DNA of 64,000 nucleotides, taken from Cryptosporangium aurantiacum (GTDB lineage Bacteria; Actinomycetota; Actinomycetes; Mycobacteriales; Cryptosporangiaceae). The DNA lies in NCBI RefSeq assembly GCF_900143005.1, contig NZ_FRCS01000006.1, positions 372,001-436,000 on the forward strand, written 5' to 3'. Both the position numbers and the translations under genes were made by a program. The notes beneath the pieces were generated by a model. That model ran no database searches. It had not been told where the DNA came from and was given only the letters and a program-made list of their open reading frames with translations. Positions 2,080-43,775 of this stretch are shown in pieces (positions within the stretch are counted from its first letter, which is position 1; every line of letters starts with the position of its first letter).

Positions 2080-2188
2080 CCGTTCCCGCCTCCCTGGTCC
2101 GCCTGCCGGTGAAAGACACCGTTCGGCGTCCGTCCGCCTCACGATCACACGTCCGCCGGTCCGGTCGACGATACGTCCCGTCACACCC

Positions 2189-2234
2189 CTTGACGCAGTC
2201 AAGGCCCACACCTAGTTTCTGCCCTAATCATTAT
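2189..2234 (+). promoter_or_regulatory. Promoter and operator of the AtuA-like operon
   Basis: TTGACG (2190-2195) and TAGTTT (2213-2218) are 17 bases apart and form a plausible sigma-A promoter. Transcription would begin near 2225, inside CCCTAATCATTAT (2222-2234), the copy of the motif at 1269-1281. The -35 box also lies in a palindrome, CTTGAC-gca-GTCAAG (2189-2203). An operator over the start site fits repression by the neighbouring FadR-type protein. A further imperfect arm, GATTAG, follows at 2239-2244. Confidence 0.6.
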
Positions 2235-2270
2235 CAGGGATTAGCCGGGCGCACTGGCGCGGAGGCGCAG

Positions 2271-6997: not shown

Positions 6998-7034
6998 CGG
7001 TTAGCGATCGTTTGTTGAGATGCGGAGGTCTCCG

Positions 7035-8063: not shown

Positions 8064-8183
8064 CCGGCAGCCGGTCCGTCGCTCGCCGAGCGTACGACGA
8101 CTATCCACTTTCGCGGCTATTCGCGGATCGGAATCGCTCTTAGGCTGCTGTCTCTCGTTGCCGGATTACGTTGGAGTACTCCG

Positions 8184-10121
<1,938 letters not shown>

Positions 10122-13866: not shown

Positions 13867-14784
13867 ATGGGCACCAAATGGAACGAGCGCGCAGTCCCAC
13901 GCCTAGACGACCGAGTCGCCGTCGTCACCGGCGCCAACAGCGGTCTGGGCTTCGAAACGGCACGTGTGCTCGCCGACCGGGGCGCGACCGTGATCCTCGC
14001 GGTCCGCGATACCGACAAGGGCCGGCAGGCCGCCGACCGCATCACGGCGCGCGTCCCTGGTGCCCGGCTGACCGTCCAGCGGCTGGACCTGGCCTCTCTG
14101 GAGTCCGTCCGCGAGGCCGCCGCCGAACTCCGCGCGGCGCATCCGACGATCGATCTGCTGATCAACAACGCCGGACTGATGTACACGCCTCGGCAGAAGA
14201 CCAGCGACGGCTTCGACCTGCAGTTCGGCGTCAACCACCTCGGGCACTTCGCGCTCACCGGGCTGCTGCTCGACCGGCTGCTGCCCGTGCCGGGCTCCCG
14301 GGTGGTGACCGTCAGCAGCGTCGGACACAAGATCCAGGCCGACATCCACTTCGACGACCTGCAGTTCGACCGCTCCTACAACCGGGTCGCCGCCTACGGC
14401 CAGGCCAAGCTCGCGAACCTGATGTTCACCTACGAGTTGCAGCGCCGTCTGACCCAGCACGGCAGTACCACCATCGCCCTCGCGGCGCACCCCGGCAACG
14501 CCCAGACCGAGCTCGGTCGTAACACCCCGGCCCCGGTGCGCGCGGCGATGACAGTTGCCATGCCCCTCATCGCCCAGAAGGCGTCGATGGGCGCGCTACC
14601 CACCCTGCGCGCCGCCACCGACCCCGCCGTGCTCGGCGGCCAGTACTACGGGCCCGACGGAGTGGGCGAGGTTCGCGGGCACCCCCACGTCGTGACCTCC
14701 AGCGACAAGTCCTACGACGTGGCCGTCCAGCAACGTCTGTGGGCGGTGTCGGAACAACTCACCAACGTCAAGTTCCCCGTATGA
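13867..14784 (+). CDS. Short-chain dehydrogenase/reductase, retinol-dehydrogenase-like
   Basis: 305 residues; ATG at 13867 has GGAGG 4 bases upstream. Rossmann motif T-G-A-N-S-G-L-G (residues about 22-29), N-N-A-G, and catalytic Y-G-Q-A-K, followed by the P-G-N-A-Q-T segment. Its length and the F-G-V-N-H-L-G-H-F block place it with RDH/WW-oxidoreductase-like SDRs that act on hydrophobic alcohols or carbonyls with NADP(H). It overlaps the next SDR by 4 bases (ATGA) and is divergent from a TetR gene. Confidence 0.9.
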   Translation: MGTKWNERAVPRLDDRVAVVTGANSGLGFETARVLADRGATVILAVRDTDKGRQAADRITARVPGARLTVQRLDLASLESVREAAAELRAAHPTIDLLINNAGLMYTPRQKTSDGFDLQFGVNHLGHFALTGLLLDRLLPVPGSRVVTVSSVGHKIQADIHFDDLQFDRSYNRVAAYGQAKLANLMFTYELQRRLTQHGSTTIALAAHPGNAQTELGRNTPAPVRAAMTVAMPLIAQKASMGALPTLRAATDPAVLGGQYYGPDGVGEVRGHPHVVTSSDKSYDVAVQQRLWAVSEQLTNVKFPV

Positions 14785-15638
14785 GCGACACCGAGAAGGA
14801 CATCATGAAGACGATCATCATCACTGGTGCCAGCGACGGCATCGGCGCGGCGTCCGCCCGCCAGCTGGCGACCGCGGGTCACGACGTCGTCCTCGTGGGC
14901 CGCTCGCCGCAGAAGACGGCCGCGGTAGCGAAGCAGATCAACGCGCCCTACCACGTGGCCGACTTCACCGATCTGGCCCAGGTGCGCCGACTCGCCGACG
15001 AGCTGCTGGCCGCCCACCCCCAGATCGACGTCCTGGCGAACAACGCCGGCGGCCTCTTCGGTCACGAGACCACCACCGACGGGTTCGACAAGACCTTCCA
15101 GGTCAATCACCTGGCACCGTTCCTGCTCACCAACCTCCTGATGGATCGGCTCCTCACGTCCAGGGCCGCGCTGATCCAGACCTCCAGCGTCGGCGCCAAG
15201 GCGTTCGGCAACCTGGATCTCGACGACCTGAACAACACCAAGAAATGGGGCGCCAACAAGGCCTACGGCGACGGCAAGCTGGCCAACATCCTGTTCACGC
15301 AGGAGCTGCACCGCCGCTACCACGACCGCGGTCTCAGCGCCGTCGCCTTCCACCCCGGAAACGTGGCCACGAACTTCGCGAGCGACACGTCCAGCCCCAT
15401 CCGCTGGCTGTACCGCACGCCCCTCTCTCGGCTGATCCTCGTCGACGCCGGCAAAGGTGGAGCGGCGCTCACCTGGCTGGCCGCAGGGACACCGGGCGTG
15501 ACCTGGCAGTCCGGCGCCTACTACGAGAAGAACAAGCCCGTCCCGGAGAAGAAGCTGCACGCGCAGGCCCGCGACGCGTCCGTCGCCCGTGGGCTGTGGG
15601 AGCGTAGCGAGGCGCTGTTGCAGAAGGCCGGCGCATGA
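14781..15638 (+). CDS. Short-chain dehydrogenase/reductase
   Basis: 285 residues from the ATG that overlaps the previous stop (ATGA). An inner ATG at 14805 has a better ribosome site (AGAAGGA, 4 bases away) and may be the true start. T-G-A-S-D-G-I-G (NADP-binding), N-N-A-G-G, and Y-G-D-G-K active site. It is closely similar along its whole length to the product of 17907-18752 (shared blocks I-G-A-A-S-A-R-Q-L-A and P-G-V-T-W-Q-S-G), so the two are recent duplicates. Substrate unknown. Confidence 0.88.
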   Translation: MSDTEKDIMKTIIITGASDGIGAASARQLATAGHDVVLVGRSPQKTAAVAKQINAPYHVADFTDLAQVRRLADELLAAHPQIDVLANNAGGLFGHETTTDGFDKTFQVNHLAPFLLTNLLMDRLLTSRAALIQTSSVGAKAFGNLDLDDLNNTKKWGANKAYGDGKLANILFTQELHRRYHDRGLSAVAFHPGNVATNFASDTSSPIRWLYRTPLSRLILVDAGKGGAALTWLAAGTPGVTWQSGAYYEKNKPVPEKKLHAQARDASVARGLWERSEALLQKAGA

Positions 15639-16309
15639 GCACCCGACGCGTCATCGTCTTCGGCGCCACCGGCATGGTGGGCCAGGGAGTACTGGAAGCC
15701 TGCCTGCGCGACGACACGATCACCGAAGTCCTCGTCATCGGCCGCTCCTCCACCGGGCGCACCCACCCGAAGCTCCGCGAGCTCCACCACGAAGATTTCA
15801 CTGACTTCACGCCCATCCAGGATCAGCTCTCCGGTTATGACGCCTGCTTCTTCTGCCTGGGCGTCTCGGCCCTGGGAATGACCGAAGCCGCGTACCGCGC
15901 GATCACCGTCGACTTCACGCTGGCGGCCGCGAAGACCCTGCTGGCGGTCAACCCCGACCTGGCCTTCTGTTACGTCTCCGGCGCGGGCACCGACGGCACC
16001 GGCAAGACCCGGATGATGTGGGCGCGAGTCAAGGGCGAGCTGGAGAACACGCTGCTGGCGATGACACCCCGGGCCTACATGTTCCGCCCCGCGTTCATCC
16101 TTCCGCTGCCGGGGGGCAAGGCGAAAACCAAGTCGTACGTTCTCCTCTACCGCGTCGTAACACCGCTCTACCCCGCCCTGCGACGCCTCGCGCCGCGGAT
16201 CGTCACCACGAGCCTGCTGCTGGGACAGGCCATGATCGCGGTCACCCGCACTGGCCGGACCAACCGCGTCCTGGCCACCGGCGACATCAACGAGGTAGCC
16301 GCTCGGTAG
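15635..16309 (+). CDS. NAD(P)-binding epimerase-like (atypical SDR) protein
   Basis: 224 residues, overlapping the preceding SDR by 4 bases. The N-terminal G-A-T-G-M-V-G-Q-G is an atypical-SDR dinucleotide site; V-S-G-A-G-T-D and the W-A-R-V-K-G segment resemble the HTATIP2/YbjT-like NAD(P)H-binding group. No Y-x-x-x-K of classical SDRs is evident. Third gene of the 13867-16309 operon. It may act as a reductase accessory or sensor; function unproven. Confidence 0.75.
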   Translation: MSTRRVIVFGATGMVGQGVLEACLRDDTITEVLVIGRSSTGRTHPKLRELHHEDFTDFTPIQDQLSGYDACFFCLGVSALGMTEAAYRAITVDFTLAAAKTLLAVNPDLAFCYVSGAGTDGTGKTRMMWARVKGELENTLLAMTPRAYMFRPAFILPLPGGKAKTKSYVLLYRVVTPLYPALRRLAPRIVTTSLLLGQAMIAVTRTGRTNRVLATGDINEVAAR

Positions 16310-22148: not shown

Positions 22149-22234
22149 ATTGATCCGCACCCGGGGCGCCGAGGGCACATGCCGCGCTCCCAGCCCAGCA
22201 TGTGCCCGTCCATCCGCCGACGAGGAGGCCGCCC

Positions 22235-23710
22235 ATGACCGTTGCCGCCGACGCCGACTCGACAGCCGAGGACCCCGACCCAGGTCGGGCCGGAGAGCCC
22301 GGCATCGGAAGGCTGGCCGTCCAGGTGGCGCGGCGCATCGAGGCGGATGTCGTCCGGCGTGGCTGGCCGGTGGGCGAGTCGCTGGGTTCCGAGCCTGAGC
22401 TACGGCAACGTCACGAGGTGAGTCGGTCGGTGCTCCGCGAGGCCGTCCGGCTCGTCGAACACCACCAGGTGGCGCGGATGCGTCGGGGGCCCAACGGCGG
22501 GCTCTTCGTGAAGGCCCCCGACGCCGGCCCCGCGGCCCGGGCGATCGTCATCTACCTGGAGTACGTCGGAACCACCGTCGCCGATCTGATGGAAGCGCGC
22601 CGATTGCTCGAGCCGGTGGCTGCCGTCCTGGCGGCCCAAAACCTCACCGAGGACGGCATCACCCTGGTCCGCGGCGCCGTCGACGCCGGGTCGATCATCG
22701 ACCCACCGGAGCCCGGCAGCGCCGAGACGCTCCACGTCGTGCTCGGCCGGCTGTCGGCCAATCCGGCACTCCAGCTGTTCATCGACGTGCTGATCCGACT
22801 CACCACCCGCTTCGCGGTGCCCGTCAAGGCCTCCCCCCGAGAGCTTCGCCAGGCGCGCGCGGAGGCAATCCGCCGCCACGCCGACATCGCCGACGCTGTG
22901 ATCGCAGGCAACGGCGGAAAGGCGGAGGCCAGGCTGGCCGCTTACCTCGACGGCGTCTCGTCCTGGATGCGCACCAACAGCCTCGGCGCGGCGCACGGAC
23001 GCACCGTACCCGTGGTCGGCCGCGTGCGGACGGGCGAGCCGAAAGCGAAGCTCGCCGAGGTGGTGGCCGAACAGCTGCGTGAGGAGATCGCGGCGAGCGG
23101 CTGGCCGGTCGGATCCGTCCTCGGCTCGGAGACCGACCTGCTGTCCCGCTACCGGATCAGCCGCGCGGTCCTGCGCGAGGCCGTGCGGCTGCTGGAGTGC
23201 CATTCGGTAGCGCGGATGCGGCGCGGGCCGGGCGGAGGCCTTGTCGTCGGGGTCCCCGACCCGCAGGCCAGCATCGACTCGATAGCGCTCTACCTGGAGT
23301 TCAAGAGGGTCTCCGGTGCCGATCTGGTCGCCGTCCGCGACGCGATCGAGCTGGGCATCGTCACGCGAGTGGTCGAACGGCACGACCAATCCGGGATCAC
23401 CGAGCGACTCGAACGGGCGGTGCGGTGGATCAGCGAAGGCCCGGACGACGACCAGGACAACGCCGACCACTTCCACACCGTGCTGGCCGAGGTCGCCGGG
23501 AATCCGGTCCTCCTCCTGTTCCTGCGTGTCCTCACCCAGCTCTGGCGTCGGCACTCCGGTACCGAACGGGCCGACACCGGCCCGGCCACACGCGCCGGGG
23601 TCGAACACGTGCACCGGAGGATCGCCGAGGCGGTTCTTGCCGGGGACGAGGCGCTCGCCCGCCACCGAATGCGCCGCCACCTCGCCGTACTCACCGAATG
23701 GTGGCACTGA
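22235..23710 (+). CDS. Double-module FadR/GntR-family regulator
   Basis: 491 residues, twice the size of a normal FadR-type protein. ATG at 22235 has GAGGAGG 6 bases upstream. Module 1 (about 25-250) and module 2 (about 269-491) each have a winged helix-turn-helix (G-W-P-V-G...L-G-S-E...S-R-x-V-L-R-E-A-V-R-L) with an R-M-R-R-G-P-x-G-G-L wing, then a helical FCD domain. Each module ends near a helical R-R-H/M-R-R-H segment. One polypeptide would thus carry the fold of a FadR dimer. It heads the acyl-CoA operon that begins 46 bases later, so it probably controls it. A close paralogue is at 56032-57519. Confidence 0.92.
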   Translation: MTVAADADSTAEDPDPGRAGEPGIGRLAVQVARRIEADVVRRGWPVGESLGSEPELRQRHEVSRSVLREAVRLVEHHQVARMRRGPNGGLFVKAPDAGPAARAIVIYLEYVGTTVADLMEARRLLEPVAAVLAAQNLTEDGITLVRGAVDAGSIIDPPEPGSAETLHVVLGRLSANPALQLFIDVLIRLTTRFAVPVKASPRELRQARAEAIRRHADIADAVIAGNGGKAEARLAAYLDGVSSWMRTNSLGAAHGRTVPVVGRVRTGEPKAKLAEVVAEQLREEIAASGWPVGSVLGSETDLLSRYRISRAVLREAVRLLECHSVARMRRGPGGGLVVGVPDPQASIDSIALYLEFKRVSGADLVAVRDAIELGIVTRVVERHDQSGITERLERAVRWISEGPDDDQDNADHFHTVLAEVAGNPVLLLFLRVLTQLWRRHSGTERADTGPATRAGVEHVHRRIAEAVLAGDEALARHRMRRHLAVLTEWWH

Positions 23711-23756: not shown

Positions 23757-24908
23757 GTGCTTGCCGAGCTCGATGAGCCCCAGCGGGAGTTCGCGGAGGC
23801 GGTACGCGGCTTCGCCCACAAACACCTGGCCGAGGGAGCGCACGCCCGGGCACACGATCCGGAGGTCCCCTGGGACGTCGCGGAACTGCTGGCGGGACAG
23901 GGCCTGCTCGGCCTGACCGTTCCGGAGGCCGACGGCGGGCAAGGCGCGAGCTTGCTCGACGCCGTCATCGCGATCCAGGAGGTCGGCGCCGTCTGCCCCA
24001 AGAGCGCCGACCTCGTCCAGGCAGGCAACTTCGGTCCGCTCCGGACCGTCGCCGAGTACGCGACCCCGGAGCAGAAGCAGCGTTGGCTGCCCGACGTGCT
24101 CGCCGGGCGCGCGCTGATCTCGCTCGGCATGAGCGAGCCGGAGGCTGGCTCCGCGGTCACCGACCTCGCCACGTCGGCGACCGAGGACGGCGACGGCTTC
24201 CGGATCAACGGAACCAAGATCTGGGGTACGCACAGCGTCGACGCGAACCTCTTCCTCGTTTACGTCCGCTTCGGGCCGGGCGTCGGTGGCATCGGATCGG
24301 TGCTGGTGGAACGCGGCACGCCCGGCTTCACCCAGGGCCGGCCGTCGGACTACATGAGCGGCGAACGCTGGGCTCCCCTGCACTTCGACGACTGTTGGAT
24401 CCCGAAGGAGAACGTGCTGCTCGGGGCCGGTGGGTTCAAAAGGCAGATCAGCGGGTTCAACGTCGAACGGCTCGGCAACGCTGCCCGCTCGCTCGCCGTC
24501 GGCCGGCTGGCGTTCGAGACCGCGAAGGCGCACATCCTCGAGCGTGAGCAGTTCGGCAGGCCACTGGCGGAATTCCAGGGCCTGCAGTGGAAGGTCGCCG
24601 AAGTCGCCGTGGCCCTCGAGTCAGCCCAGCTACTGCTGTTCCGTGCCGCGCAGCCCGCTCCCGGGACGCTGCCGGACGCCTACGCCACGTCGGTCGCGAA
24701 GCTCGCGGCGAACGAGGCGGGCTTCCGGGCCGCGAACGAGGCGATGCAGATGATGGGCGCGATGGGGTACAGCCAGGAGAGCCTGGTCGAGTACTGCTTG
24801 CGCCGCACCCGTGGCTGGATGATCGCGGGCGGGTCGCTGGAGATCCTCAAGAACCGCATCGCCGAGGAGGTTCTCGGACGGCGGTTCAACCAGCGGGCGT
24901 CACGATGA
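23757..24908 (+). CDS. Acyl-CoA dehydrogenase
   Basis: 383 residues; GTG at 23757 with AGGAGG 5 bases upstream. Features include V-P-E-A-D-G-G-Q-G, M-S-E-P-E-A-G-S-A, I-N-G-T-K-I-W-G and Q-F-G-R-P-L-A-E-F-Q. The usual Y-E-G-T base is replaced by A-G-G-S, but Glu237 (N-V-E-R-L) sits at the alternative base position of isovaleryl-/long-chain-type enzymes. FAD-dependent alpha,beta-desaturation of an acyl-CoA, electrons to ETF. Its stop overlaps the ADP-forming ligase start by 4 bases. Confidence 0.92.
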   Translation: MLAELDEPQREFAEAVRGFAHKHLAEGAHARAHDPEVPWDVAELLAGQGLLGLTVPEADGGQGASLLDAVIAIQEVGAVCPKSADLVQAGNFGPLRTVAEYATPEQKQRWLPDVLAGRALISLGMSEPEAGSAVTDLATSATEDGDGFRINGTKIWGTHSVDANLFLVYVRFGPGVGGIGSVLVERGTPGFTQGRPSDYMSGERWAPLHFDDCWIPKENVLLGAGGFKRQISGFNVERLGNAARSLAVGRLAFETAKAHILEREQFGRPLAEFQGLQWKVAEVAVALESAQLLLFRAAQPAPGTLPDAYATSVAKLAANEAGFRAANEAMQMMGAMGYSQESLVEYCLRRTRGWMIAGGSLEILKNRIAEEVLGRRFNQRASR

Positions 24909-27013
24909 CGGTCGCGCCTCCCCTCTCCGGCGCAGAACTCGCCCGTGCGTTGTTCGCACCGCGCAGCGTCGCTCTGATCGGCGCGAGTTCGGATCCGGTG
25001 AAGGCATCCTCCCGGCCGCTCCGCTACCTGCGGCGGGACGGGTTCGCCGGCGCGGTGTACCCGGTGAATCGGCGGGGTGGGGTGATCGGCGGCGAGCCCG
25101 TCCACCGCACGCTGGCCGAATTACCGGAGGTCCCCGAGCACGCATTCCTCATGACCCCCACCGCGGCGACCGTGGCAGCCGTCCGCGAGTGCGGCGAGGC
25201 CGGGGTCCGGCTCGCCACCGTGCTCAGTGGTGGCTTCGGGGAGAACGGCCCTACCGGTCGGGAACGCGAGCGCGCCTTGCGCGAGACCGCGGCGGCATAC
25301 GGGGTACGGCTGCTCGGCCCGAACAGCCTGGGCGTGGTCAACCCCCGCCGCAGGCTGGCTCTCACCGCGAACGCCGCGTTCAGCGAGCCGGACCTGCCGG
25401 TGGGCGGGACCATGGTGGCGTCCCAGTCGGGGAGCCTGCTGGGTGCGCTGATGTCCCGGAGTCGTGGACGGGGCACCGGTTTCTCCCGGATGGTGTCCGT
25501 CGGCGCCGAAGCCGACCTGTCGCTCGGCGAGATCTGCGCCGCGACTGTTGCCGACGACGACGTCACGGGTTACCTGCTGTTCCTCGAATCGTTGCGGCAT
25601 GCCGATCGGTTGCGCGCGTTCGCGATCGCCGCAGCCGCCGAGGGCAAACCCGTGGTGGCGTACAAGCTGGGCCGGTCGCGGGTGGGTGCCGAGCTCGCGC
25701 TGTCCCACACCGGCGCTCTCGCCGGGGAGGACGACGTGGCTACGGCGTTCCTCGCCGACTGCGGCATCGCCCGGATCAGCACTCTCGACGGACTGTTGGA
25801 GGCACTGCCGCTGCTCGACGCCGTGCCGGCCCGCCGGGCCGGTGAACGGCCCCGGCGGGTCGGAGTGGTCACGACGACCGGCGGCGGCGCGGCCATGGTC
25901 GTCGACCAGATCGGCGTCCGCGGCGTGCCCCTGGCCACCGTGAGCGCCGCGACCCACGCCCGGCTCACCGCCGCCGGGGTGGCCGCCGAGCCCGGCCCGA
26001 TCGTGGATCTCACGCTGGCCGGAACCCGGCCCGAAATCATGGGGGCAGCGCTGGACGTGCTGCGCACCGCCCCCGAGATCGACCTGCTCGTCGCGGTGAT
26101 CGGCAGTTCGGCGCGTTCTCAGCCGGAGCTCGCCACCACCCCGCTGGTGGATCGCGCGGGCCGGCCGGGCTGCCCGCTCGCCGTGTTCGTCGTCCCCGAG
26201 GCACCGGACGCCTCGGCGATGCTCGCGGCGACGGGCCTGCCGGTGTCCCGCACACCGGAGTCGTGCGCGGACGTGGTCGCGGCCGCGCTGGGGCGCACGG
26301 CGCCGACGCCCCGCACAGTGCCGACCGCGGCGGTCCCCGGTCCGGCGAGGCTGCTGGACGAAGCCGCATCGTATGCCCGGATCGCCGCGCTGGGCGTCCC
26401 GGTGGCGCCGTTCCGCGTGGTGCCGGTCGGTGCTGTCGCACCGGAGGATCTGGCCTTCCCCGTCGCGGTCAAGGCGCTGTCCGCGGCGCTACCGCACAAG
26501 TCGGACGTCGGCGGAGTCGTGCTGGGAGTCGGTTCGCCCGCCGACGTGAGGACGGCGTCGCGGCGAGTCGCGGCGGACGTCGCCGCCGGCGCCGGCGTCC
26601 AGATCCACGAGGTGCTGGTGCAGGAGATGCGCCCGGCGCTGGGTGAGGTACTCGTCGGCTACCGGGTCGATCCGGAGGCGGGCCCGATGGTGCTCGTCGC
26701 CGCCGGCGGAGTGCTGGCCGAACTCCTGCGCGACCGCGCCGTCCGGATGGCCCCGGTGGACCGGGAGACCGCCCTGGAAATGCTGGACGAGGTGGTGTCC
26801 CTGGGTGTGCTGCGGGGGTTCCGTGGTGCGCCGCGTGGGGACCTCGGGGCGCTCGCCGACGTCGTCGTCGCGTTGTCCCGGCTGGCCGAGGACGCCGGCG
26901 TGGTCACCGCTGAGCTGAATCCGGTCCTCGTCGGGGCCACGGGCGTCACCGCGGTGGACGCTGTCGTCCACTGCGTCGACGACAGCAGCAACGACCGGCA
27001 GGAGGACCGATGA
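24905..27013 (+). CDS. ADP-forming acyl-CoA synthetase (acetate-CoA ligase family)
   Basis: 702 residues; starts at the ATGA overlap. Domain order: CoA-binding Rossmann domain (about 10-140, V-A-L-I-G-A-S), two succinyl-CoA-ligase-like domains (about 150-460) with phospho-acceptor His268 in S-H-T-G-A-L-A-G-E-D, and a C-terminal ATP-grasp domain (about 480-700, V-K-A-L-S...H-K-S-D-V-G-G-V, E-L-N-P-V-L-V). It joins or releases CoA from an acid with ADP/ATP exchange and could run in the ATP-making direction from an acyl-CoA product. Its presence among ligases, transferases and thioesterase genes suggests several routes for CoA turnover in this operon. Confidence 0.9.
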   Translation: MTVAPPLSGAELARALFAPRSVALIGASSDPVKASSRPLRYLRRDGFAGAVYPVNRRGGVIGGEPVHRTLAELPEVPEHAFLMTPTAATVAAVRECGEAGVRLATVLSGGFGENGPTGRERERALRETAAAYGVRLLGPNSLGVVNPRRRLALTANAAFSEPDLPVGGTMVASQSGSLLGALMSRSRGRGTGFSRMVSVGAEADLSLGEICAATVADDDVTGYLLFLESLRHADRLRAFAIAAAAEGKPVVAYKLGRSRVGAELALSHTGALAGEDDVATAFLADCGIARISTLDGLLEALPLLDAVPARRAGERPRRVGVVTTTGGGAAMVVDQIGVRGVPLATVSAATHARLTAAGVAAEPGPIVDLTLAGTRPEIMGAALDVLRTAPEIDLLVAVIGSSARSQPELATTPLVDRAGRPGCPLAVFVVPEAPDASAMLAATGLPVSRTPESCADVVAAALGRTAPTPRTVPTAAVPGPARLLDEAASYARIAALGVPVAPFRVVPVGAVAPEDLAFPVAVKALSAALPHKSDVGGVVLGVGSPADVRTASRRVAADVAAGAGVQIHEVLVQEMRPALGEVLVGYRVDPEAGPMVLVAAGGVLAELLRDRAVRMAPVDRETALEMLDEVVSLGVLRGFRGAPRGDLGALADVVVALSRLAEDAGVVTAELNPVLVGATGVTAVDAVVHCVDDSSNDRQEDR

Positions 27014-27369
27014 CCCCCGAGACACTGAAGCGACTGTCCGACGCGGATCCTGCCCTGGCCCGCCGCGGCGCCCTGGTGGACGGGGTGATCCAGGTGGATG
27101 TCGGTGCGGAGCCCTGGTACCTCACGGTCGAACGGGGAGCGATACGGGCGGCTGGGACGCGGCCACCCGCCGGGCCGGTGCGGTTGCGCCTCTCCGCACC
27201 GCGCGCGGAGTGGGAAGCGTTCTGGGAGCCGCGCCCGAGACCCGGCCACCACGACGTGATGGCTCTGATGCGCCGGCGCGTGCTGACCGTGGAGGGCGAC
27301 CTGCACTTGTTCATGGCCCATCTGCGCTACGTGAAGGATCTGCTGGAGAAACCCCGGAGCGCCGCATGA
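27010..27369 (+). CDS. Small SCP2-like (sterol-carrier fold) protein
   Basis: 119 residues, overlapping its neighbours by 4 bases on both sides. The pattern V-I-Q-V-D-V-G...W-Y-L-T-V-E-R-G-A-I, then L-R-L-S-A-P-R-A-E-W-E-A-F-W, then V-E-G-D-L-H-L-F-M-A-H-L-R-Y-V is the strand/helix order of SCP2-type lipid-binding domains. It may hold a hydrophobic acyl-CoA or substrate for the flanking enzymes. The family call is by pattern only; a DUF of similar fold is possible. Confidence 0.55.
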   Translation: MTPETLKRLSDADPALARRGALVDGVIQVDVGAEPWYLTVERGAIRAAGTRPPAGPVRLRLSAPRAEWEAFWEPRPRPGHHDVMALMRRRVLTVEGDLHLFMAHLRYVKDLLEKPRSAA

Positions 27370-28217
27370 CCGCCCGCGTCGAGCCGATCGTCGGCCGCTA
27401 TCTCCACGTCGACCTGCCGACCGGCCGCGCGCGGCTCTACGTCGAGGAGGCGGGGACCGGCGCGATCCCGCTGTTGTGCCTGCACACCGCGGGCTCGGAC
27501 GGCCGCCAGTACCGGCACCTGCTCAACGACGAGGGCCTCCTGGAGCGCTTCCGGGTCGTCACCTTCGACCTGCCCTGGCACGGCCGATCGTCGGTGCCCG
27601 CTGACTGGCGGGACCGCGAGTACGTGCTGACCTCGGACGACTACGTCGGGATCGTGCTCGCCGTCGTCGACGCTCTGGGGCTGGACCGACCCGTGGTGAT
27701 GGGCTGCTCCATCGGCGGACGACTGGTACTGCGGCTCGCCGTGGACCACCCTGATCGCTTCCGGGCGCTCATCGGACTCCAGGCCGGGGCCGCCGTCGCC
27801 CCGTACTACGACCGGGAGTACCTGCATCGCCCGGACGTCCACGGTGGAGAGCTGTGTGCGGCGCTGATGTCCGGTCTGGTCGGCCCGGACGCCCCGGCGG
27901 CGGACCGCGCCGAGACGCTGTGGCACTACGCGCAGGGTGGGCCCGGCGTGTTCAAGGGCGACCTGCACTTCTACAAGGACGAGTCGGTCAGCCCCGAGCA
28001 ACTGGCCACGATCGACACCGGCCGCTGCCCGCTGTACCTGCTCAGCGGCGAATACGACTACTCGTGCCTGCCCGAGGACACGATGGCCGTCGCGAAGGCC
28101 GTTCCCGGGGCCGTGGTGACGATCATGGAAGGACTGGGACACTTCCCGATGAGCGAGAACCACGCCGCCTTCATGGCCCACCTCGGTCCGGTGCTCGACC
28201 GGATCGCCGCGTCGTGA
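27366..28217 (+). CDS. Alpha/beta-hydrolase
   Basis: 283 residues; ATG at 27366 in an ATGA overlap. L-C-L-H-T-A-G gives the oxyanion loop, G-C-S-I-G-G the nucleophile Ser elbow, S-G-E-Y-D-Y the Asp region, and G-L-G-H-F-P the catalytic His. It resembles C-C bond hydrolases and esterases of catabolic operons (MhpC/BphD-like size). Position between the SCP2-like gene and aldehyde dehydrogenase suggests it opens a ring or cleaves an ester whose product is oxidised next. Cytoplasmic. Confidence 0.88.
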   Translation: MTARVEPIVGRYLHVDLPTGRARLYVEEAGTGAIPLLCLHTAGSDGRQYRHLLNDEGLLERFRVVTFDLPWHGRSSVPADWRDREYVLTSDDYVGIVLAVVDALGLDRPVVMGCSIGGRLVLRLAVDHPDRFRALIGLQAGAAVAPYYDREYLHRPDVHGGELCAALMSGLVGPDAPAADRAETLWHYAQGGPGVFKGDLHFYKDESVSPEQLATIDTGRCPLYLLSGEYDYSCLPEDTMAVAKAVPGAVVTIMEGLGHFPMSENHAAFMAHLGPVLDRIAAS

Positions 28218-29635
28218 GCGAGCTCGGCTCGTTCATCGACGGCAAGTGGAGCCGAGGTGGCGGCGGCAGCATCCCCGTGTGGAACCCGGCCACCGGCACA
28301 CAGCTCGCTGAGCTCCCACTGGTCGCCGCGGACGATCTCGAGCAGGCGCTCGCGGCCGCGGATGCGGCGTTCCCCTCCTGGCGGGCCACCTCGGCGCTAC
28401 GCCGCGAGGAGATTCTGCGCACCGCGGCCGGGCTCGTCCGGGAACGCTCCGAGTCGATCGCGGCCGCGATCGCCCGCGAGCTGGGCAAGCCGCTGCGCGA
28501 GGCACGCGTGGAGGTACGCACCGCCTGCGAGCACATCGAGTGGGCCGCCGGGGAAGGCAGGCGGGCCTACGGCCGGGTGATCCCTGGCCGCGAGCCCGGC
28601 GTGCACGCGAGCACGCGGATCGAGCCGCTCGGACCGATCGCCGCGTTCGCCCCCTGGAACGCCCCCCTCATCACTCCGGCCCGCAAGATCGCGGGGGCAC
28701 TGGCTGCGGGGTGCACGGTCGTGCTCAAGCCCGCCGAGGAGACCCCGACCGCCGCCTGCGAGCTGGTGCGGGCGTTCGACGAGGCCGGTACCCCGCCCGG
28801 GGTGCTCAACGTCGTCTTCGGCGAGCCCGCCGACGTCGGGGCGCGGCTGATCGGTTCCCCGCTGACGAAGGGCGCCACGTTCACCGGCTCGACAGCGGTG
28901 GGCAAGCAGCTGCTGGCGCAGGCCGCGCCGACGGTGACCGTGACGACGATGGAGCTCGGCGGGTACGCACCGGTGTTCGTGCTCCCGGATGCCGATCCGG
29001 AGGCCGTGGCGGACACCGCGGTCACCGCCGCGATGCGCAACTCCGGCCAGGTCTGCACCTCCCCCACGCGGTTCTACGTGCACGCCGACCTGCACGATCG
29101 GTTCGTCGCGCGGTTCGCTGAGCGGGCGGACGCGCTGCGGCTCGGGGACCCGTTCGACGACGCCACGGACATGGGCCCGGTCGCCACCCCGCGCCGGCTC
29201 GCCGCCATGGCGGAGCTGACCGCGGACGCCCGGGACCACGTCGTCGCCGGCGGTTATCAGGAGGATCGGCCCGGGTGGTTCTGGCGCCCGACGCTGCTCG
29301 CCGACCTGGGTGACGACGCCCGTGCCGCGACCGTCGAACCGTTCGGGCCGATGGCTCTCACCACCGCTTACACCGACCTCGACGCCGCGCTGCGCTCAGC
29401 GAACCGGCTCGGGCTCGGGCTGGCGGCGTACGTCTGGTCCTCCGCGCTGACCGCGATCGACCACGTGACGACCGGCCTGGAGGCCGGCGCCATCGCAGTG
29501 AACAGTTGGCAGGTCTCGCTGGCCGAGACCCCTTTCGGAGGAGTCGGGGAGAGCGGAGTGGGTTACGAAGGCGGCACCGAGGGCCTGCGCGCGTTCCAGC
29601 GGGTGAAGTTCGTAAGTCTCCGGAGCGGATCATGA
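28214..29635 (+). CDS. NAD(P)-dependent aldehyde dehydrogenase
   Basis: 473 residues; GTG at 28214 in a GTGA overlap. W-N-P-A-T-G near the start, P-W-N-A-P-L in the cofactor region, G-S-T-A-V-G-K, catalytic Glu247 (M-E-L-G-G) and nucleophile Cys281 (N-S-G-Q-V-C), with the normal 34-residue spacing. It oxidises an aldehyde to the free acid, which the ADP-forming ligase could then load with CoA. The aldehyde is probably released by the preceding hydrolase or by P450 chemistry. Confidence 0.93.
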   Translation: MSELGSFIDGKWSRGGGGSIPVWNPATGTQLAELPLVAADDLEQALAAADAAFPSWRATSALRREEILRTAAGLVRERSESIAAAIARELGKPLREARVEVRTACEHIEWAAGEGRRAYGRVIPGREPGVHASTRIEPLGPIAAFAPWNAPLITPARKIAGALAAGCTVVLKPAEETPTAACELVRAFDEAGTPPGVLNVVFGEPADVGARLIGSPLTKGATFTGSTAVGKQLLAQAAPTVTVTTMELGGYAPVFVLPDADPEAVADTAVTAAMRNSGQVCTSPTRFYVHADLHDRFVARFAERADALRLGDPFDDATDMGPVATPRRLAAMAELTADARDHVVAGGYQEDRPGWFWRPTLLADLGDDARAATVEPFGPMALTTAYTDLDAALRSANRLGLGLAAYVWSSALTAIDHVTTGLEAGAIAVNSWQVSLAETPFGGVGESGVGYEGGTEGLRAFQRVKFVSLRSGS

Positions 29636-30492
29636 CGGCGGGTACCGTGACCGAGTTCGACCGCGCGCTCGCTCTGGTCGACAGTGCACCGGACGTCGCG
29701 CTCGCCGAGTTGGGCGCGGGCTGGCGGTTCGGCACCGCGATGCACGGCGGTCTGTTGCTGGCTGTCGCAGCCGCAGCGGCCGGTCGCCGGATCCGGGCGG
29801 AAGGCCGCCCCGGGGATCCGCTGTCGATCAGCGCGCATTTCCTGTCCGCGGCGGTGGCCGGGCCCGCCGAGCTGCGGACCGAGGTCGTCCGGCTCGGCCG
29901 TACGCTCTCCACCGCCGCGGTGTCGCTCGCGCAGCGCGTCGACGGCGTCGACGTCGAGCGTGTGCGAGCGCTGGTCACCGTCACCGACCTCGAGCGGCTC
30001 GACGCCGACGTCCGGCTGCAACCGGAGCCCCCCGCGATGCCGCCACCGGAGCAGTGCCTGCCGTGCCCGGCCTTTCTCGAGGACGCGACGCTGTGGGACC
30101 GGGTGGAGATCCGGCTCGATCCCGCGACGGCGGGCTGGGTCCGCGGCGAGCCCGGCCACCGGCCCCACCACCAGGGCTGGGCCCGCTTCACGGACGGCCG
30201 CGACCCCGATCCGCTCGCCCTGCTGCTGATCTGCGACGCCATGCCGAACACCGTGGCGGCCCTCGGAATCCCGGGATACGTACCGACGCTGGAGCTCACC
30301 GCACACGTCCGGGGCGTGCCGTCACCGGGCTGGCTGCGCTTCACCCAGACCACCCGCAACTACTCCGCCGGGATGATCGAGGAGGACGCCGAGATCTTCG
30401 ACGCCACCGGGCGGATGGTGCTGCAGTCACGCCAGCTGGCGCGCGCGCCCCGGACGGGGCCGCACCACTCGACGACGAGGAGCGCACGATGA
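29632..30492 (+). CDS. Double-hotdog acyl-CoA thioesterase
   Basis: 286 residues in an ATGA overlap. Two hotdog halves: the first (about 15-125) with M-H-G-G-L-L-L-A and I-S-A-H-F-L-S; the second (about 150-270) with L-L-I-C-D-A-M-P-N-T and L-E-L-T-A-H-V-R-G, as in TesB-like (4HBT_3) enzymes. It hydrolyses acyl-CoA to acid and CoA and could release stalled intermediates in this pathway. Chain-length preference is not visible. Confidence 0.85.
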   Translation: MTAGTVTEFDRALALVDSAPDVALAELGAGWRFGTAMHGGLLLAVAAAAAGRRIRAEGRPGDPLSISAHFLSAAVAGPAELRTEVVRLGRTLSTAAVSLAQRVDGVDVERVRALVTVTDLERLDADVRLQPEPPAMPPPEQCLPCPAFLEDATLWDRVEIRLDPATAGWVRGEPGHRPHHQGWARFTDGRDPDPLALLLICDAMPNTVAALGIPGYVPTLELTAHVRGVPSPGWLRFTQTTRNYSAGMIEEDAEIFDATGRMVLQSRQLARAPRTGPHHSTTRSAR

Positions 30493-30860
30493 TCAAGGTC
30501 CTGCTGTTCGTGAAGCGGAAGGACGGCCTCAGCCGCGAGGAGTTCCGCGCACGGTACGAGTCCGGCCACGTCCCGCTCGCGATCGCGGAGCTGGAGCACT
30601 TGCGGCGCTACGCGCGCAACTTCGTCCGTCCGGTGAAGGGCCTGCCCGAGCCGGGCTTCGACGTCGTGACCGAGTTCTGGTTCGAGGACTGGGAGGCGTG
30701 GAAGGCCACGTCGGCCTATGCCCTCGGCGAGACGGGCCGCACCCTCGCCGAGGACGAGGCGGTGTTCATGGATCGCGCCAGCATGCGTTTCGTGGTGGTG
30801 GACGAACACGTCTCGGATGTGGACGCGGTGCGGGCTTCGGCGAGCGCGGGGTCCGCGTGA
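30489..30860 (+). CDS. EthD-domain protein
   Basis: 123 residues, ATGA overlap at 30489. The N-terminal I-K-V-L-L-F-V-K-R-K-D-G-L-S-R-E-E-F-R-A-R-Y and G-H-V-P-L-A pattern defines the EthD/dimeric alpha-beta barrel. Such proteins accompany P450 or catabolic operons; some are decarboxylases, isomerases or cyclases, most are uncharacterised. The C-terminal ~20 residues are acidic/Ala-rich and probably disordered. Confidence 0.82.
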   Translation: MIKVLLFVKRKDGLSREEFRARYESGHVPLAIAELEHLRRYARNFVRPVKGLPEPGFDVVTEFWFEDWEAWKATSAYALGETGRTLAEDEAVFMDRASMRFVVVDEHVSDVDAVRASASAGSA

Positions 30861-31720
30861 AACGGGTCGTCGTCACCGGGGGCAGCGGGAAGCTCGGCCG
30901 GGCCGTCGTGGCGGAGCTGGTGGCCGCTGGTCACCGGGTCGTCAACCTCGATCTCGTTCCGCCGGCCGAGCCGCAGGCCCCGTTCATCCCGCTTGATCTG
31001 GGGAATTACGGCCAGGTCCTGGAAGCGTTCACCGCGATCGATGCCCGCTATTCGCACGTGGACGCCGTCGTCCACCTGGGCGCGATCCCCGGTCCGGGCC
31101 TGGCGACCAACACGACCGTCTTCACCAACAACCTGACCGCCACCTATCACGTCTTCGCCGCGGCCAGGGCGGCGTCGATCCGCACGGTGGTCTGGGCGTC
31201 CAGCGAGACCCTCCTCGGGATTCCGCTGAACCTGAACCCGCCGCCCTACCTCCCGGTCGACGAGGAGTACCCGGCCCGTCCGGAGTCCTCTTACGCGCTG
31301 GCCAAGCACCTCGAGGAGGCCATGGCCGCCCAGTTCTGCCGCTGGGATCCCACCCTCAAGGCCATCGGCCTGCGCTTCTCCCACGTGATGGCTCCGGGAG
31401 ACTACGCGGGGTTCCCCGACTTCGACACCGATCCCGCCAAGCGTGTCTGGAACGCGTGGGCCTACATCGACGCGCGCGACGGCGCGCAGGCTGTCCGGCT
31501 GGCCCTCGATCACGACGGCGTCGGCATGGACGTTTTCGTCATCGCGAGCGCGGACACGGTCATGAGCCGTCCCAGTGCGGAGCTGGCCGCGAAGTACTTC
31601 CCGGACGTACCGATCCGCCGGCCGCTGGAGGGCACCGAGACGCTGCTCTCCATCGACAAAGCCCGACGGGTCCTCGGGTACTCCCCCCGCCACAGCTGGC
31701 GGGACCACCAGGCAGTCTGA
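30857..31720 (+). CDS. NAD-dependent epimerase/dehydratase-family protein
   Basis: 287 residues; GTG at 30857 in a GTGA overlap. Dinucleotide motif T-G-G-S-G-K-L-G, H-L-G-A-I-P-G, and active site Y-A-L-A-K (S-S-Y-A-L-A-K-H-L). The N-N-L-T-A-T-Y-H-V-F segment and V-W-A-S-S-E-T are typical extended-SDR blocks. It probably oxidises or reduces a hydroxyl in the pathway. Last of the tightly overlapped set that begins at 23757. Confidence 0.87.
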   Translation: MKRVVVTGGSGKLGRAVVAELVAAGHRVVNLDLVPPAEPQAPFIPLDLGNYGQVLEAFTAIDARYSHVDAVVHLGAIPGPGLATNTTVFTNNLTATYHVFAAARAASIRTVVWASSETLLGIPLNLNPPPYLPVDEEYPARPESSYALAKHLEEAMAAQFCRWDPTLKAIGLRFSHVMAPGDYAGFPDFDTDPAKRVWNAWAYIDARDGAQAVRLALDHDGVGMDVFVIASADTVMSRPSAELAAKYFPDVPIRRPLEGTETLLSIDKARRVLGYSPRHSWRDHQAV

Positions 31721-31737
31721 CCACGAGAGGGACTTCA

Positions 31738-32552
31738 TGAGCAAGGTCTGGCTGATCACCGGCACATCCCGCGGCTTCGGGCGCTACTTCGCCGAGTCCG
31801 CCCTGGAGCGGGGCGACCGGGTGGCCGCGACCGCCCGCGACGTCAGCTCACTGGGCGGGTTGACCGCCAAGTACGGCGACGCGATCCTGCCGCTGACGCT
31901 CGACGTCACCGACAAGGCCGCCGTAGGCGTGGCCGTGGCCACCGCCCACGACACGTTCGGGCGCCTCGACGTCGTGGTCAACAACGCAGGCTACGGTCTG
32001 TTCGGCGCGGCCGAGGAGATCACCGAGCAGCTGCTGCGCGACCAGATGGAGACCAATTTCTATGGCGCGGTCTGGGTCACCCAGGCCGTCCTCCCGATCC
32101 TGCGCGCTCAGGCCGGTGGACACATCGTCCAGATCTCCACGATCGGCGGCGTCGCCGCCTTCCCGACGCTGAGCGGCTACCACGCGTCCAAATGGGCCCT
32201 CGAGGGGTACAGCGAAGCCCTCGCCCAGGAGGTCAAGGGCTTCGGCATCAAGGTCACCCTGGTCGAGCCCGGCAGCTTCGCCACCGACTGGGCAGGCTCG
32301 TCCGCGAAGCACGCCGAGCCCCACCCCGCCTACCAGCCGATCCGCGACGCGATGGCCGCGCGTGCCACCACCGCGCAGCCGGGCAACCCGGCCGCGGCCG
32401 GCCCGGCGCTGCTGGAGATCGTCGACGCGGAGAAGCCGCCGTTGCGGGTGCTCTTCGGTTCGGCTCCGGTGGACATCGTCAAGCACGTGTATGCCCGGCG
32501 GCTGCAGACCTGGGCCGACTGGGAGCACGTCGCCCACGCAGCTCAGGGCTGA
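31738..32552 (+). CDS. Short-chain dehydrogenase/reductase
   Basis: 271 residues; ATG at 31738, 17 bases after the previous stop, with GAGAGGGA upstream. T-G-T-S-R-G-F-G, N-N-A-G-Y-G, S-G-Y-H-A-S-K active site and the V-E-P-G-S-F-A-T-D block, typical of NADP-dependent SDRs of the retinol/17-beta-hydroxysteroid-like group. Final gene of the ten-gene run that starts with the double FadR regulator; a terminator follows. Confidence 0.9.
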
Positions 32553-41993: not shown

Positions 41994-43775
41994 ATGAGTG
42001 TTCGACCGATCAGGATCGGCAATTTCTCCGGCTATCTCGGTGACCGGATGACCGCGCTCGATGAGGTGCTCGCGGGCGACCCCGTGGACGTCGTGATGGG
42101 CGACTACCTCGCCGAGGTCACGCTCGCGATCCTCGCCGAGAGCCACCGCAAGGGCCGCGCCGGCTACGTCGCGTACTTCCTTCGCCAGCTGCGACCGCAT
42201 CTGGGCACGATCGCCGAACGCGGGATCAAGGTGGTCACGAACGCCGGCGGGTTCGACCCCGCCGGGCTCGCCACCGCCGTGCGTGAGCTCGCGGCGGGCG
42301 ACGGCATCCCGCTGCGGGTGGCGTACGTCGAGGGGGACGCGGTGCTCGATCGGCTCGACGAGTTCCGGGCCGACGGCCTCGCGTTGGAGCATCTGGACAC
42401 CGGCGCACCGCTCGCGGACTGGGGATTCGAGCCGATCGCGGCCAACGCGTACCTCGGTGGCTTCGGTATCGCCGCGGCGCTGCAGGCAGGGGCCGACATC
42501 GTCGTCACCGGCCGGGTCACCGACGCGTCCCTGACCGCGGGACCGGCCGCGTGGTGGCACGGATGGTCGCCCGACGACTACGACGCGCTGGCCGGAGCGG
42601 TCACGGCGGGCCACATCATCGAGTGCGGCGCGCACGCGACCGGCGGGAACTTCTCCGGCTTCCGCTCGGTACCGGGAATGGTGAAGCCCGGTTTCCCGAT
42701 CGCCGAGATCGCTGCCGACGGCAGTTCGGTGATCACCAAGCACGGCCGCGACGGCGGAACGGTCACCGTCGACACCGTCATCGCCCAGCTCGTCTACGAG
42801 ATCCAGGGCCCGCGCTATCTCAACCCGGACGCGACGGTGCACCTCGACACCGTACGGCTGGAGCAGGTCGGCCCCGACCGGGTGGCCATCGGCCCGGTGA
42901 CCGGTTCGGCGCCGCCGCCGACCACGAAGGTGGCCACGTTCGCCGAGGTCGGCTACCAGATGGTGCAGTTCCTGTTCTGCAGCGCCCCGGACGTCGCGGA
43001 GAAGGTCGCGCTGCTCCGCGCTCAGCTGCACGCCCACCTCGACGACCGGGTCGACCAGCTCGACGTCACGCCGCTCGGCACCGCCGCGGAGGACCCCGCG
43101 TCGCAGTGGGAGGCGACGGTCCCGATCCGCGTGATGGCTACGGCGCGGACATCGGAGCAGCTCCGCGGGTTCACGCAGGTGATGGGGAGCATCTACCTGC
43201 AGGGCTTCCCCGGCTTCTTCCACGACACCCACAGCCCGCGGGTGACGACTCCCTGGCCCCGCATCGACTACTGGCCCGCGCTGCTGCCCACTGACCGGCT
43301 CCTCCACCGGGCGGTGTTCGAGGACGGGACGACCGTGGACGCGCCGGTCGCGACCGGCGCGGAGCCGTCGCCGCAGCCGGTTCATCCCGAACCACCGGAG
43401 CTCGCGGTCGGTGCCACCCGGCGGGTGCCGCTGGGCACGGTCGCGTACGCGCGGTCCGGCGACAAGGGCGGGAACTGCAACATCGGGGTCTGGCTTCCGC
43501 GCGAAATCGAAGGCCCGGAGGCCTGGGAGTGGCTGCGGCGGGCGCTGTCGACCGAGAACATCCGGGCACTGCTGCCCGAAGCGAAGGACTGCCGGGTGAT
43601 CCGGCACGAGTTCCCCGAGCTCCGCGCCGTGAACCTCGTCCTGGTGGGTCTGCTCGGCAATGGCGGATCGTCGAACCTGCGGGTGGACCAGGTGGGCAAG
43701 TCGGTGGGCGAGTACCTGCGCGCCAAGCACGTCCCGATTCCGGAGACCGTGCTCGACGGCATCGGGCGGCGATGA
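41994..43775 (+). CDS. AtuA-like protein (DUF1446 plus C-terminal domain), second copy
   Basis: 593 residues. Aligns from end to end with the product of 2271-4055: I-G-N-F-S-G-Y-L-G-D-R, G-D-Y-L-A-E-V-T, N-A-G-G-F-D-P, T-G-R-V-T-D-A-S, and S-G-D-K-G-G-N-C-N-I-G-V-W in the C-terminal domain (about 480-593). No ribosome site is obvious before 41994. AtuA proteins are needed for terpene catabolism in Pseudomonas, reaction unknown. Here it pairs with an alpha/beta-hydrolase (ATGA overlap) and is controlled by a LysR regulator, unlike the first copy. Confidence 0.88.
   Translation: MSVRPIRIGNFSGYLGDRMTALDEVLAGDPVDVVMGDYLAEVTLAILAESHRKGRAGYVAYFLRQLRPHLGTIAERGIKVVTNAGGFDPAGLATAVRELAAGDGIPLRVAYVEGDAVLDRLDEFRADGLALEHLDTGAPLADWGFEPIAANAYLGGFGIAAALQAGADIVVTGRVTDASLTAGPAAWWHGWSPDDYDALAGAVTAGHIIECGAHATGGNFSGFRSVPGMVKPGFPIAEIAADGSSVITKHGRDGGTVTVDTVIAQLVYEIQGPRYLNPDATVHLDTVRLEQVGPDRVAIGPVTGSAPPPTTKVATFAEVGYQMVQFLFCSAPDVAEKVALLRAQLHAHLDDRVDQLDVTPLGTAAEDPASQWEATVPIRVMATARTSEQLRGFTQVMGSIYLQGFPGFFHDTHSPRVTTPWPRIDYWPALLPTDRLLHRAVFEDGTTVDAPVATGAEPSPQPVHPEPPELAVGATRRVPLGTVAYARSGDKGGNCNIGVWLPREIEGPEAWEWLRRALSTENIRALLPEAKDCRVIRHEFPELRAVNLVLVGLLGNGGSSNLRVDQVGKSVGEYLRAKHVPIPETVLDGIGRR

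Follow-up and report, generated by a model that had tools for sequence, protein, structure and literature searches.

A candidate CoA-dependent acid-degradation operon with an SCP2-coupled alpha/beta-hydrolase in Cryptosporangium aurantiacum

Hydroxycinnamate clusters of the FerA/Hca type carry an ADP-forming ligase, an acyl-CoA dehydrogenase (ACAD), and an aldehyde dehydrogenase (ALDH), with a crotonase-type hydratase/lyase beside the ligase and ALDH. A succinyl-CoA-synthetase-like ligase reportedly goes with the 3-sulfinopropionyl-CoA desulfinase Acd, in which Arg84 is said to be important. The itaconate/methylsuccinate cluster comprises a methylsuccinyl-C4-CoA dehydrogenase, a MmgE/PrpD isomerase, a CoA transferase, a hydratase, and a lyase (PMC12290011). 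Here, we describe an operon at positions 23757-31720 of a 64,000-nucleotide stretch of Cryptosporangium aurantiacum DNA (contig NZ_FRCS01000006.1, positions 372,001 to 436,000; hereafter, the window), part of a 9.58 Mb genome, in which an ACAD, an ADP-forming ligase, and an ALDH are encoded together with an SCP2-like protein and an alpha/beta-hydrolase. We lean toward reading it as one catabolic operon, built of two reusable units and a local tail, that would lead from an aldehyde through an acid to a CoA thioester. Its enzyme families are all known; what appears new is that an operon for CoA-dependent degradation of an acid includes an unusual hydrolase coupled to an SCP2-like protein. In agreement with the first-pass annotation, which did not recognize the combination as a described pathway, neither the gene set nor the SCP2-hydrolase pair was found described in the accessible parts of the open-access literature, subscription papers being mostly outside this scope.

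Operon layout and the recurring five-gene set

Eight open reading frames (ORFs) make up the operon; the second coordinate of each line is the stop.

23757..24908, + strand: ACAD, 383 aa; Pfam ACAD domains, alignment to 1ukw and 5af7
24905..27013, + strand: ADP (NDP)-forming acyl-CoA ligase, fused alpha-beta type, 702 aa; CoA_binding_2, Succ_CoA_lig, ATP-grasp_5
27010..27369, + strand: SCP2-like protein, stand-alone, 119 aa; Pfam SCP2 25.4 bits (cut-off 21.3), AlphaFold model
27366..28217, + strand: alpha/beta-hydrolase, 283 aa; Abhydrolase_1
28214..29635, + strand: ALDH, succinate-semialdehyde dehydrogenase (SSADH)-like, 473 aa; Aldedh 474.6 bits
29632..30492, + strand: double-hotdog acyl-CoA thioesterase, probably accessory, 286 aa; 4HBT_3 and 4HBT_3C, matches 3bbj
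30489..30860, + strand: EthD-domain protein, probably accessory, 123 aa; PF07110, 53 bits
30857..31720, + strand: NAD-dependent epimerase/dehydratase-type short-chain dehydrogenase/reductase (SDR), probably accessory, 287 aa; PF01370

The first gene starts at 23757 with a GTG preceded by AGGAGG, and at all seven junctions the neighboring genes overlap in frame by 4 bases (ATGA five times, GTGA twice), bearing out the NTGA overlaps reported in the first-pass annotation, whose enzyme families for the eight genes were likewise confirmed by Pfam domain content. Within the window, 9 of 23 adjacent same-strand pairs tested overlap in this way, comprising all 7 of the operon and 2 of the remaining 16, a split with a probability of ~1.5e-4 (hand arithmetic); the count used 31 genes entered from ORF lists, not every window gene, and the figure outside the operon is therefore approximate. 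This layout supports the assignment of the eight genes to one tightly packed operon.

Gene order was compared across a named genome collection queried with the ACAD. Because the loci read were the best 80 of at least 576 confirmed stretches (64 to 74% identity) and some contigs were truncated, the counts describe nearest relatives only; the homologue thresholds also excluded, for example, L061, whose hydrolase frame is broken, from the gene-order counts. ACAD and ligase genes were adjacent on the same strand in 55 of the 80 loci, the order ACAD-ligase-SCP2-hydrolase was found in 23, and the order ACAD-ligase-SCP2-hydrolase-ALDH in 20. These five-gene loci were mostly alphaproteobacterial and included Nocardia, a Mycolicibacterium metagenome-assembled genome (MAG), Bradyrhizobium, Rhodopseudomonas, Azospirillum, Chelatococcus, Rhizobium, and one Pseudomonas MAG. 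Genes 1-5 are thus a recurring conserved set, and their order across two phyla would mark a real sequence of catabolic steps; the full eight-gene order, which the first-pass annotation had proposed searching for in other actinobacteria, was not kept. In two Acidovorax loci (L084 and L086), the SCP2, hydrolase, and ALDH genes lay on the opposite strand. The module of the Mycolicibacterium MAG (L111) is flanked by genes for a UbiD-type decarboxylase and a luciferase-like monooxygenase (7027-8481, 14720-15829).

In the ligase tree, the window paired with Nocardia jinanensis (support 100), and in the ACAD tree it fell inside one actinobacterial clade (support 99/96), its exact place being unsure because of long end branches. 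Neither the SCP2-like gene nor the ACAD family occurred in three same-genus genomes or in one other genome of the family, where the best P0001 relative was 36% identical and the hydrolase was absent at E <= 1e-60. At that threshold, the hydrolase was present in 13 of 249 sampled same-order genomes, the window's own included, and 13 hydrolase regions from the other 12 (three of them short) held no such ligase and no ACAD above 29% identity. Megablast of the operon against plasmids gave zero matches. Neighbor genes were called with a rough GC3 script that served only to choose proteins.

The five genes split into two units, SCP2-hydrolase-ALDH and ACAD-ligase, that are also found apart. Plasmids of Peribacillus frigoritolerans, Rhodococcus qingshengii, and R. 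rhodochrous carry SCP2-hydrolase-ALDH without a ligase or ACAD; in Palleronia and Martelella this unit occurs with Liv transporter and TcuAB genes. An ALDH gene was present in the stretch for 7 of the 11 annotated SCP2-hydrolase plasmid loci read, a set that includes Rhizobium etli even though the SCP2 profile does not recognize its N-terminus. ACAD-ligase, for its part, often occurs without the hydrolase, and genes around the 80 ACAD loci encode FadJ-like proteins (32), MmgE/PrpD (32), TctC (33), and pcaF-like thiolases (13); an Acinetobacter plasmid carries MmgE/PrpD, FadJ-like, pcaF thiolase, and DcaP porin genes.

Genes 6-8 do not follow this pattern, and the first-pass claim that all eight genes form one pathway was not upheld; that annotation had named a poorly conserved order as a refutation, which applies to the eight genes but leaves a five-gene claim standing. 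A set of 93 related loci, made up of the 80 fetched with the ACAD, 12 annotated ones from plasmids, and one genome region, held no match at E <= 1e-5 to the thioesterase, the EthD protein, or the epimerase, the sole match at E <= 0.01 being the epimerase in L092 (126 residues, 30%, E 1.9e-4). Relatives are common in the class, with 144 of 394 genomes holding one for the thioesterase (E <= 1e-30) and 72 of 394 for the epimerase (E <= 1e-40), own genome included, and the epimerase-type SDR has a 65% identical paralogue elsewhere in the same genome (G000:C3:288785). Around 29 thioesterase and 29 epimerase loci (flanks ~1.5 kb), no module genes lay alongside, except an ALDH at 32% (L170); eleven epimerase loci had an SDR at 28 to 34% identity. 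EthD relatives had no order in common with the window in the loci examined, where an ACAD at 30 to 31% lay nearby in L243 and L249 and an epimerase match at 31% in L252, and a PDB sequence search with the EthD protein returned nothing specific. The three genes look like a local tail of helpers. Unmatched in the related loci, and with relatives that have no module genes beside them beyond remote matches, they make local assembly the most likely origin of the eight-gene unit.

The SCP2-like protein and its hydrolase partner

We rank the SCP2-hydrolase pair as the most interesting part of the operon. The SCP2-like gene lies immediately 5' of the hydrolase gene in 40 of 41 hydrolase places (window plus 100 loci; window counted once, L050 twice for its two pairs, L061 twice for its broken hydrolase frame), and the exact in-frame 4-base overlap was found in 29 of the 40 pairs; seven pairs (L002-L008) had been fetched by the SCP2 query, none of them with the exact overlap. 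At the 41st place, L109 from an alphaproteobacterial MAG, SCP2 and hydrolase are fused into 413 residues with a Gly/Pro-rich linker. A less biased sample consisted of 13 regions fetched with the hydrolase alone and scanned with a profile of the module's SCP2, which found the domain in 10, adjoining the hydrolase in five and within the same open frame in five. Same-frame scores were 41 bits in L228 and 35 bits in L237, and only 15 to 22 bits in L227, L235, and L236. As L228 (8983-10257) and L237 (9214-10524), both from same-order genomes, hold SCP2-profile and hydrolase matches, they are likely further natural fusions.

Compared against plasmids, the L109 fusion matched 116 records, and in 89 of these the match extended over at least 80% of the fusion at one place. 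Among the 60 plasmid matches listed, 30 were in two pieces, 11 in one piece within a single annotated gene, eight in one piece across two annotated genes, and one was unannotated; the remaining 10 covered the hydrolase part only, including that of Palleronia, which does have an SCP2 gene. The SCP2 profile scored 178 bits on the L109 fusion, 51 bits on that of Natronorubrum aibiense, and a weak 24 bits on that of Rhodococcus DK17, and on separate genes 88 bits in Peribacillus, 70 bits in each of two Rhodococcus, and 102 bits in Sulfitobacter. The Pfam SCP2 model found the window copy but none of 10 others (six separate copies and four fusion-candidate N-termini) at E <= 0.05.

The AlphaFold model of the SCP2-like protein (pLDDT 94) matched UbiJ-SCP2 and SCP2 folds with TM scores of 0.60 to 0.78 by query length (ten best rows), so that Pfam, the model, and the fold search agree on an SCP2 alpha/beta fold; a PDB sequence search with the protein gave nothing specific. 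In the hydrolase, Ser115, on a nucleophile elbow GCSIGGR, Asp231, and His259 are invariant in 25 aligned sequences and are the predicted catalytic triad; HTAG-DGRQYR and GEYDYSC are further conserved motifs. Tentatively, we propose that the SCP2-like protein and the hydrolase may form a single enzyme of two parts, whether split or fused, whose SCP2 part would present a hydrophobic lactone or enol ester to the hydrolase, the aldehyde released then going to the ALDH. If so, this would be an undescribed type of hydrolase with a dedicated lipid-carrier subunit, occurring in Actinomycetota, Pseudomonadota, Bacillota, and haloarchaea. The claim of a hydrolase with a carrier subunit is testable, and the natural fusions are ready single-chain proteins for its study.

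Several further loci bear on the surroundings of this pair. In a Sulfitobacter plasmid (L202, 8618-9852), it adjoins a catechol-type dioxygenase, LysR, and ben genes, neighbors that hint at an enol-lactone-like substrate. R. etli p42d (L305, 6983-8212) encodes a 409-aa hydrolase, with ~130 extra N-terminal residues unrecognized by the SCP2 profile, near flavin reductase, LLM (luciferase-like) oxygenase, and lactonase genes. The Palleronia pair lies close to an AtuA gene.

Conserved residues, the predicted route, and its alternatives

The ligase unites CoA-binding, Succ_CoA_lig, and ATP-grasp domains within a single chain and matched 3-hydroxypropionyl (3HP)-CoA and 4-hydroxybutyryl (4HB)-CoA ligases in the PDB; all NCBIfam models that matched it scored below their cut-offs. 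The phospho-His of the SHTG motif has a role in ADP-forming acyl-CoA synthetases, and the candidate phospho-His268 of the window ligase, in SHTGAL, is conserved in at least 97% of 68 sequences. The best NCBIfam model of the ALDH was SSADH (392 bits, below its cut-off of 646). Cys281 and Glu247, each present in at least 97% of 26 sequences, make it probably acid-forming, and the conservation of these residues together with that of Ser115-Asp231-His259 makes hydrolysis followed by oxidation to an acid plausible.

In the ACAD, Glu237 occupies the helix G position on an NVER motif, aligned to a Thr of 1ukw, and Ala357-Gly358 replace the Tyr-Glu of 1ukw, Gly358 standing at the place of Glu376 in medium-chain acyl-CoA dehydrogenase (MCAD). 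Of 81 sequences, at least 97% share Glu237, and the same holds for Gly358. The sequence therefore shows both marks of the isovaleryl-CoA/long-chain acyl-CoA dehydrogenase (IVD/LCAD) type, a helix G Glu and small residues instead of Glu at the MCAD loop. LCAD and IVD have their catalytic base at the helix G position (PMC10925408), and the small residues that IVD has where MCAD carries its Tyr-Glu loop give room for branched acyl chains (PMC12369846). Because Glu237/Gly358 is the LCAD/IVD arrangement and the loop residues are small, a branched or bulky acyl-CoA is the likely substrate. The terpenoids, steroids, and alicyclic acids that the first-pass annotation put forward for RNA-seq may or may not include the operon's substrate. 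Characterized MmgE/PrpD substrates share a 1,4-dicarboxylate backbone (PMC12290011), hence the MmgE/PrpD neighbors of related ACADs hint at substituted succinates; the window operon itself has no MmgE/PrpD gene.

The reactions, their order, and the class of substrate that we infer are as follows. The SCP2-like protein would hold a hydrophobic substrate for the hydrolase, which would cleave a lactone, enol-lactone, or similar ester-like bond to yield an aldehyde (semialdehyde); the ALDH would oxidize this to a carboxylic acid, the ligase would convert the acid to its CoA thioester, and the IVD/LCAD-type ACAD would introduce an alpha,beta double bond, opening the way to beta-oxidation. This acid would probably be branched at the beta-carbon or bulky, and possibly a substituted dicarboxylate, while the thioesterase, EthD protein, and epimerase may act as local helpers. 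Cleavage to an aldehyde, oxidation, and CoA loading had been suggested in the first-pass annotation; the scheme fits genes 1-5, and SCP2-hydrolase-ALDH also stands alone as a cluster, but it does not extend to all eight genes. Were the substrate found, many genes now labeled 'hypothetical protein', 'acetate--CoA ligase family protein', or 'alpha/beta hydrolase' would thereby gain a function.

A number of observations weigh against this route. The ALDH gene follows the hydrolase gene within 31 bases in five of the 20 five-gene loci (L052, L074, L077, L082, and L111), but in the other 15 the gap is 1.2 to 3.8 kb, in L046 holding genes for a periplasmic binding protein and MmgE/PrpD. Four of the 11 plasmid loci (L202, L203, L304, and L305) have no ALDH in the stretch, and L201, L204, and L303 have one only behind other genes. 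The hydrolase model (pLDDT 77) matched only generic esterases, enol-lactonases, C-C hydrolases, and similar folds, and the SCP2 profile found no domain in three of the 13 hydrolase regions (L232, L234, and L238). Asp85 of the ACAD, which stands at the place of Arg84 in 5af7 and is shared by at least 97% of 81 sequences, is not an obvious fit for a dicarboxylate. The three same-genus genomes lack the genes tested, and the module is therefore dispensable there. Finally, the aldehyde might arise elsewhere, as a cytochrome P450 gene (20811-22130) lies just upstream, before the first of two flanking genes on the same strand:

22202..23710, + strand: double GntR-FCD regulator, 502 aa; two GntR and two FCD stretches (Pfam)
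31737..32552, + strand: classical SDR, ninth gene, downstream; adh_short

The regulator gene stops 46 bases before the first operon gene, and its product is a possible local regulator of the operon. The SDR gene begins 16 bases after the epimerase-type gene stop, without overlap, and is possibly on the same transcript.

These flanking genes underlie an alternative in which the chain starts at the ALDH. The P450 upstream of the regulator and the SDR directly 3' of the operon would make an aldehyde that the ALDH turns into an acid, the ligase and ACAD would begin beta-oxidation, and the SCP2-hydrolase pair would act late, on a CoA thioester or ring-opened ester; the fold matches of the hydrolase, mostly esterases and including RhlA, titled a dual thioesterase/acyltransferase, would suit such a role. 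We consider this order unlikely, since the SCP2-hydrolase-ALDH clusters without ligase and ACAD in Peribacillus and the two Rhodococcus species would make no CoA thioester themselves and the window operon already carries a thioesterase gene. Somewhat less likely again is mere co-regulation, with SCP2-hydrolase-ALDH removing a toxic lactone or aldehyde and ACAD-ligase degrading an unrelated acid: either unit does occur without the other, but 20 of 80 loci, from two phyla, combine them with their order unchanged, and every junction in the window operon overlaps. A side-chain pathway for phenylpropanoid-type acids, resembling the hydroxycinnamate clusters, shares the same three enzyme types; we regard it as improbable, because no crotonase-type hydratase/lyase was found among the eight genes by Pfam and neighbor genes elsewhere indicate carboxylate or dicarboxylate handling. 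Desulfination of the 3-sulfinopropionate type, by a succinyl-CoA-synthetase-like ligase and an ACAD-like desulfinase, is highly improbable: the top NCBIfam model of the ACAD is 3-sulfinopropanoyl-CoA desulfinase (NF042439) and its best PDB sequence match is 5af7, which we take to be 3-sulfinopropionyl-CoA desulfinase and which also lacks the MCAD Glu, but a score of 279.4 bits, far under the cut-off of 600, Glu237 against Gln in 5af7, and Asp85 against Arg84 led us to reject that enzyme.

The operon lies in a large catabolic region. The window also carries two AtuA-family (acyclic terpene utilization) genes (2109-4055 and 41994-43775), AMP-forming ligases, a double CaiB-type transferase (an 823-aa frame at 47252-49723 with two CoA transferase stretches), thiolases, enoyl-CoA hydratases, further ACADs, and a Liv-type ABC transporter. 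A second frame with doubled GntR and FCD lies at 56032-57519. A 934-aa frame (59018-61822) joins branched-chain amino acid type permease and ATPase domains and adjoins a Peripla_BP_6 binding protein gene (61857-63164).

Comparison with known systems

A random-barcode transposon sequencing (RB-TnSeq) study of dicarboxylic acids offers no experimental anchor, as the terms NDP and ADP-forming are absent from its accessible part (PMC12543098), and the Variovorax thiodipropionate pathway, which has ideas in common with the route proposed here, was set aside for its different gene set (PMC6370202). The window ACAD resembles the dehydrogenase of the itaconate/methylsuccinate cluster (PMC12290011) in that its relatives stand beside MmgE/PrpD in 32 of 80 loci. 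Unlike that cluster, the operon uses an ADP-forming ligase rather than a CoA transferase; having no transferase, hydratase, lyase, or MmgE/PrpD gene, it was rejected as a member, and the analogy was kept for the ACAD-MmgE loci. A Bordetella ACAD encoded between MmgE/PrpD and CaiB genes, at a locus not proven to be an itaconate cluster, is 27% identical and keeps the ordinary Glu.

Like the desulfinase Acd with succinyl-CoA synthetase, the operon pairs a succinyl-CoA-synthetase-like ligase with an ACAD-like protein that lacks the MCAD Glu; unlike Acd, the window ACAD has Asp85/Glu237 and misses the NCBIfam cut-off. It shares with the IVD/LCAD type the helix G Glu and the Gly at the MCAD Glu376 position (PMC10925408 and PMC12369846), but forms a subfamily of its own, 64 to 74% identical to its nearest 80 relatives and with a near-invariant Asp85. 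The hydrolase shares fold, size, and a predicted triad with enol-lactone and C-C hydrolases (2xua and 4lxg), yet is only ~20% identical to them and is set apart by its SCP2 neighbor and its HTAG-DGRQYR and GEYDYSC motifs. SCP2 and UbiJ-SCP2 proteins, in turn, share the fold of the window-type SCP2, which differs from them in being coupled or fused to an alpha/beta-hydrolase.

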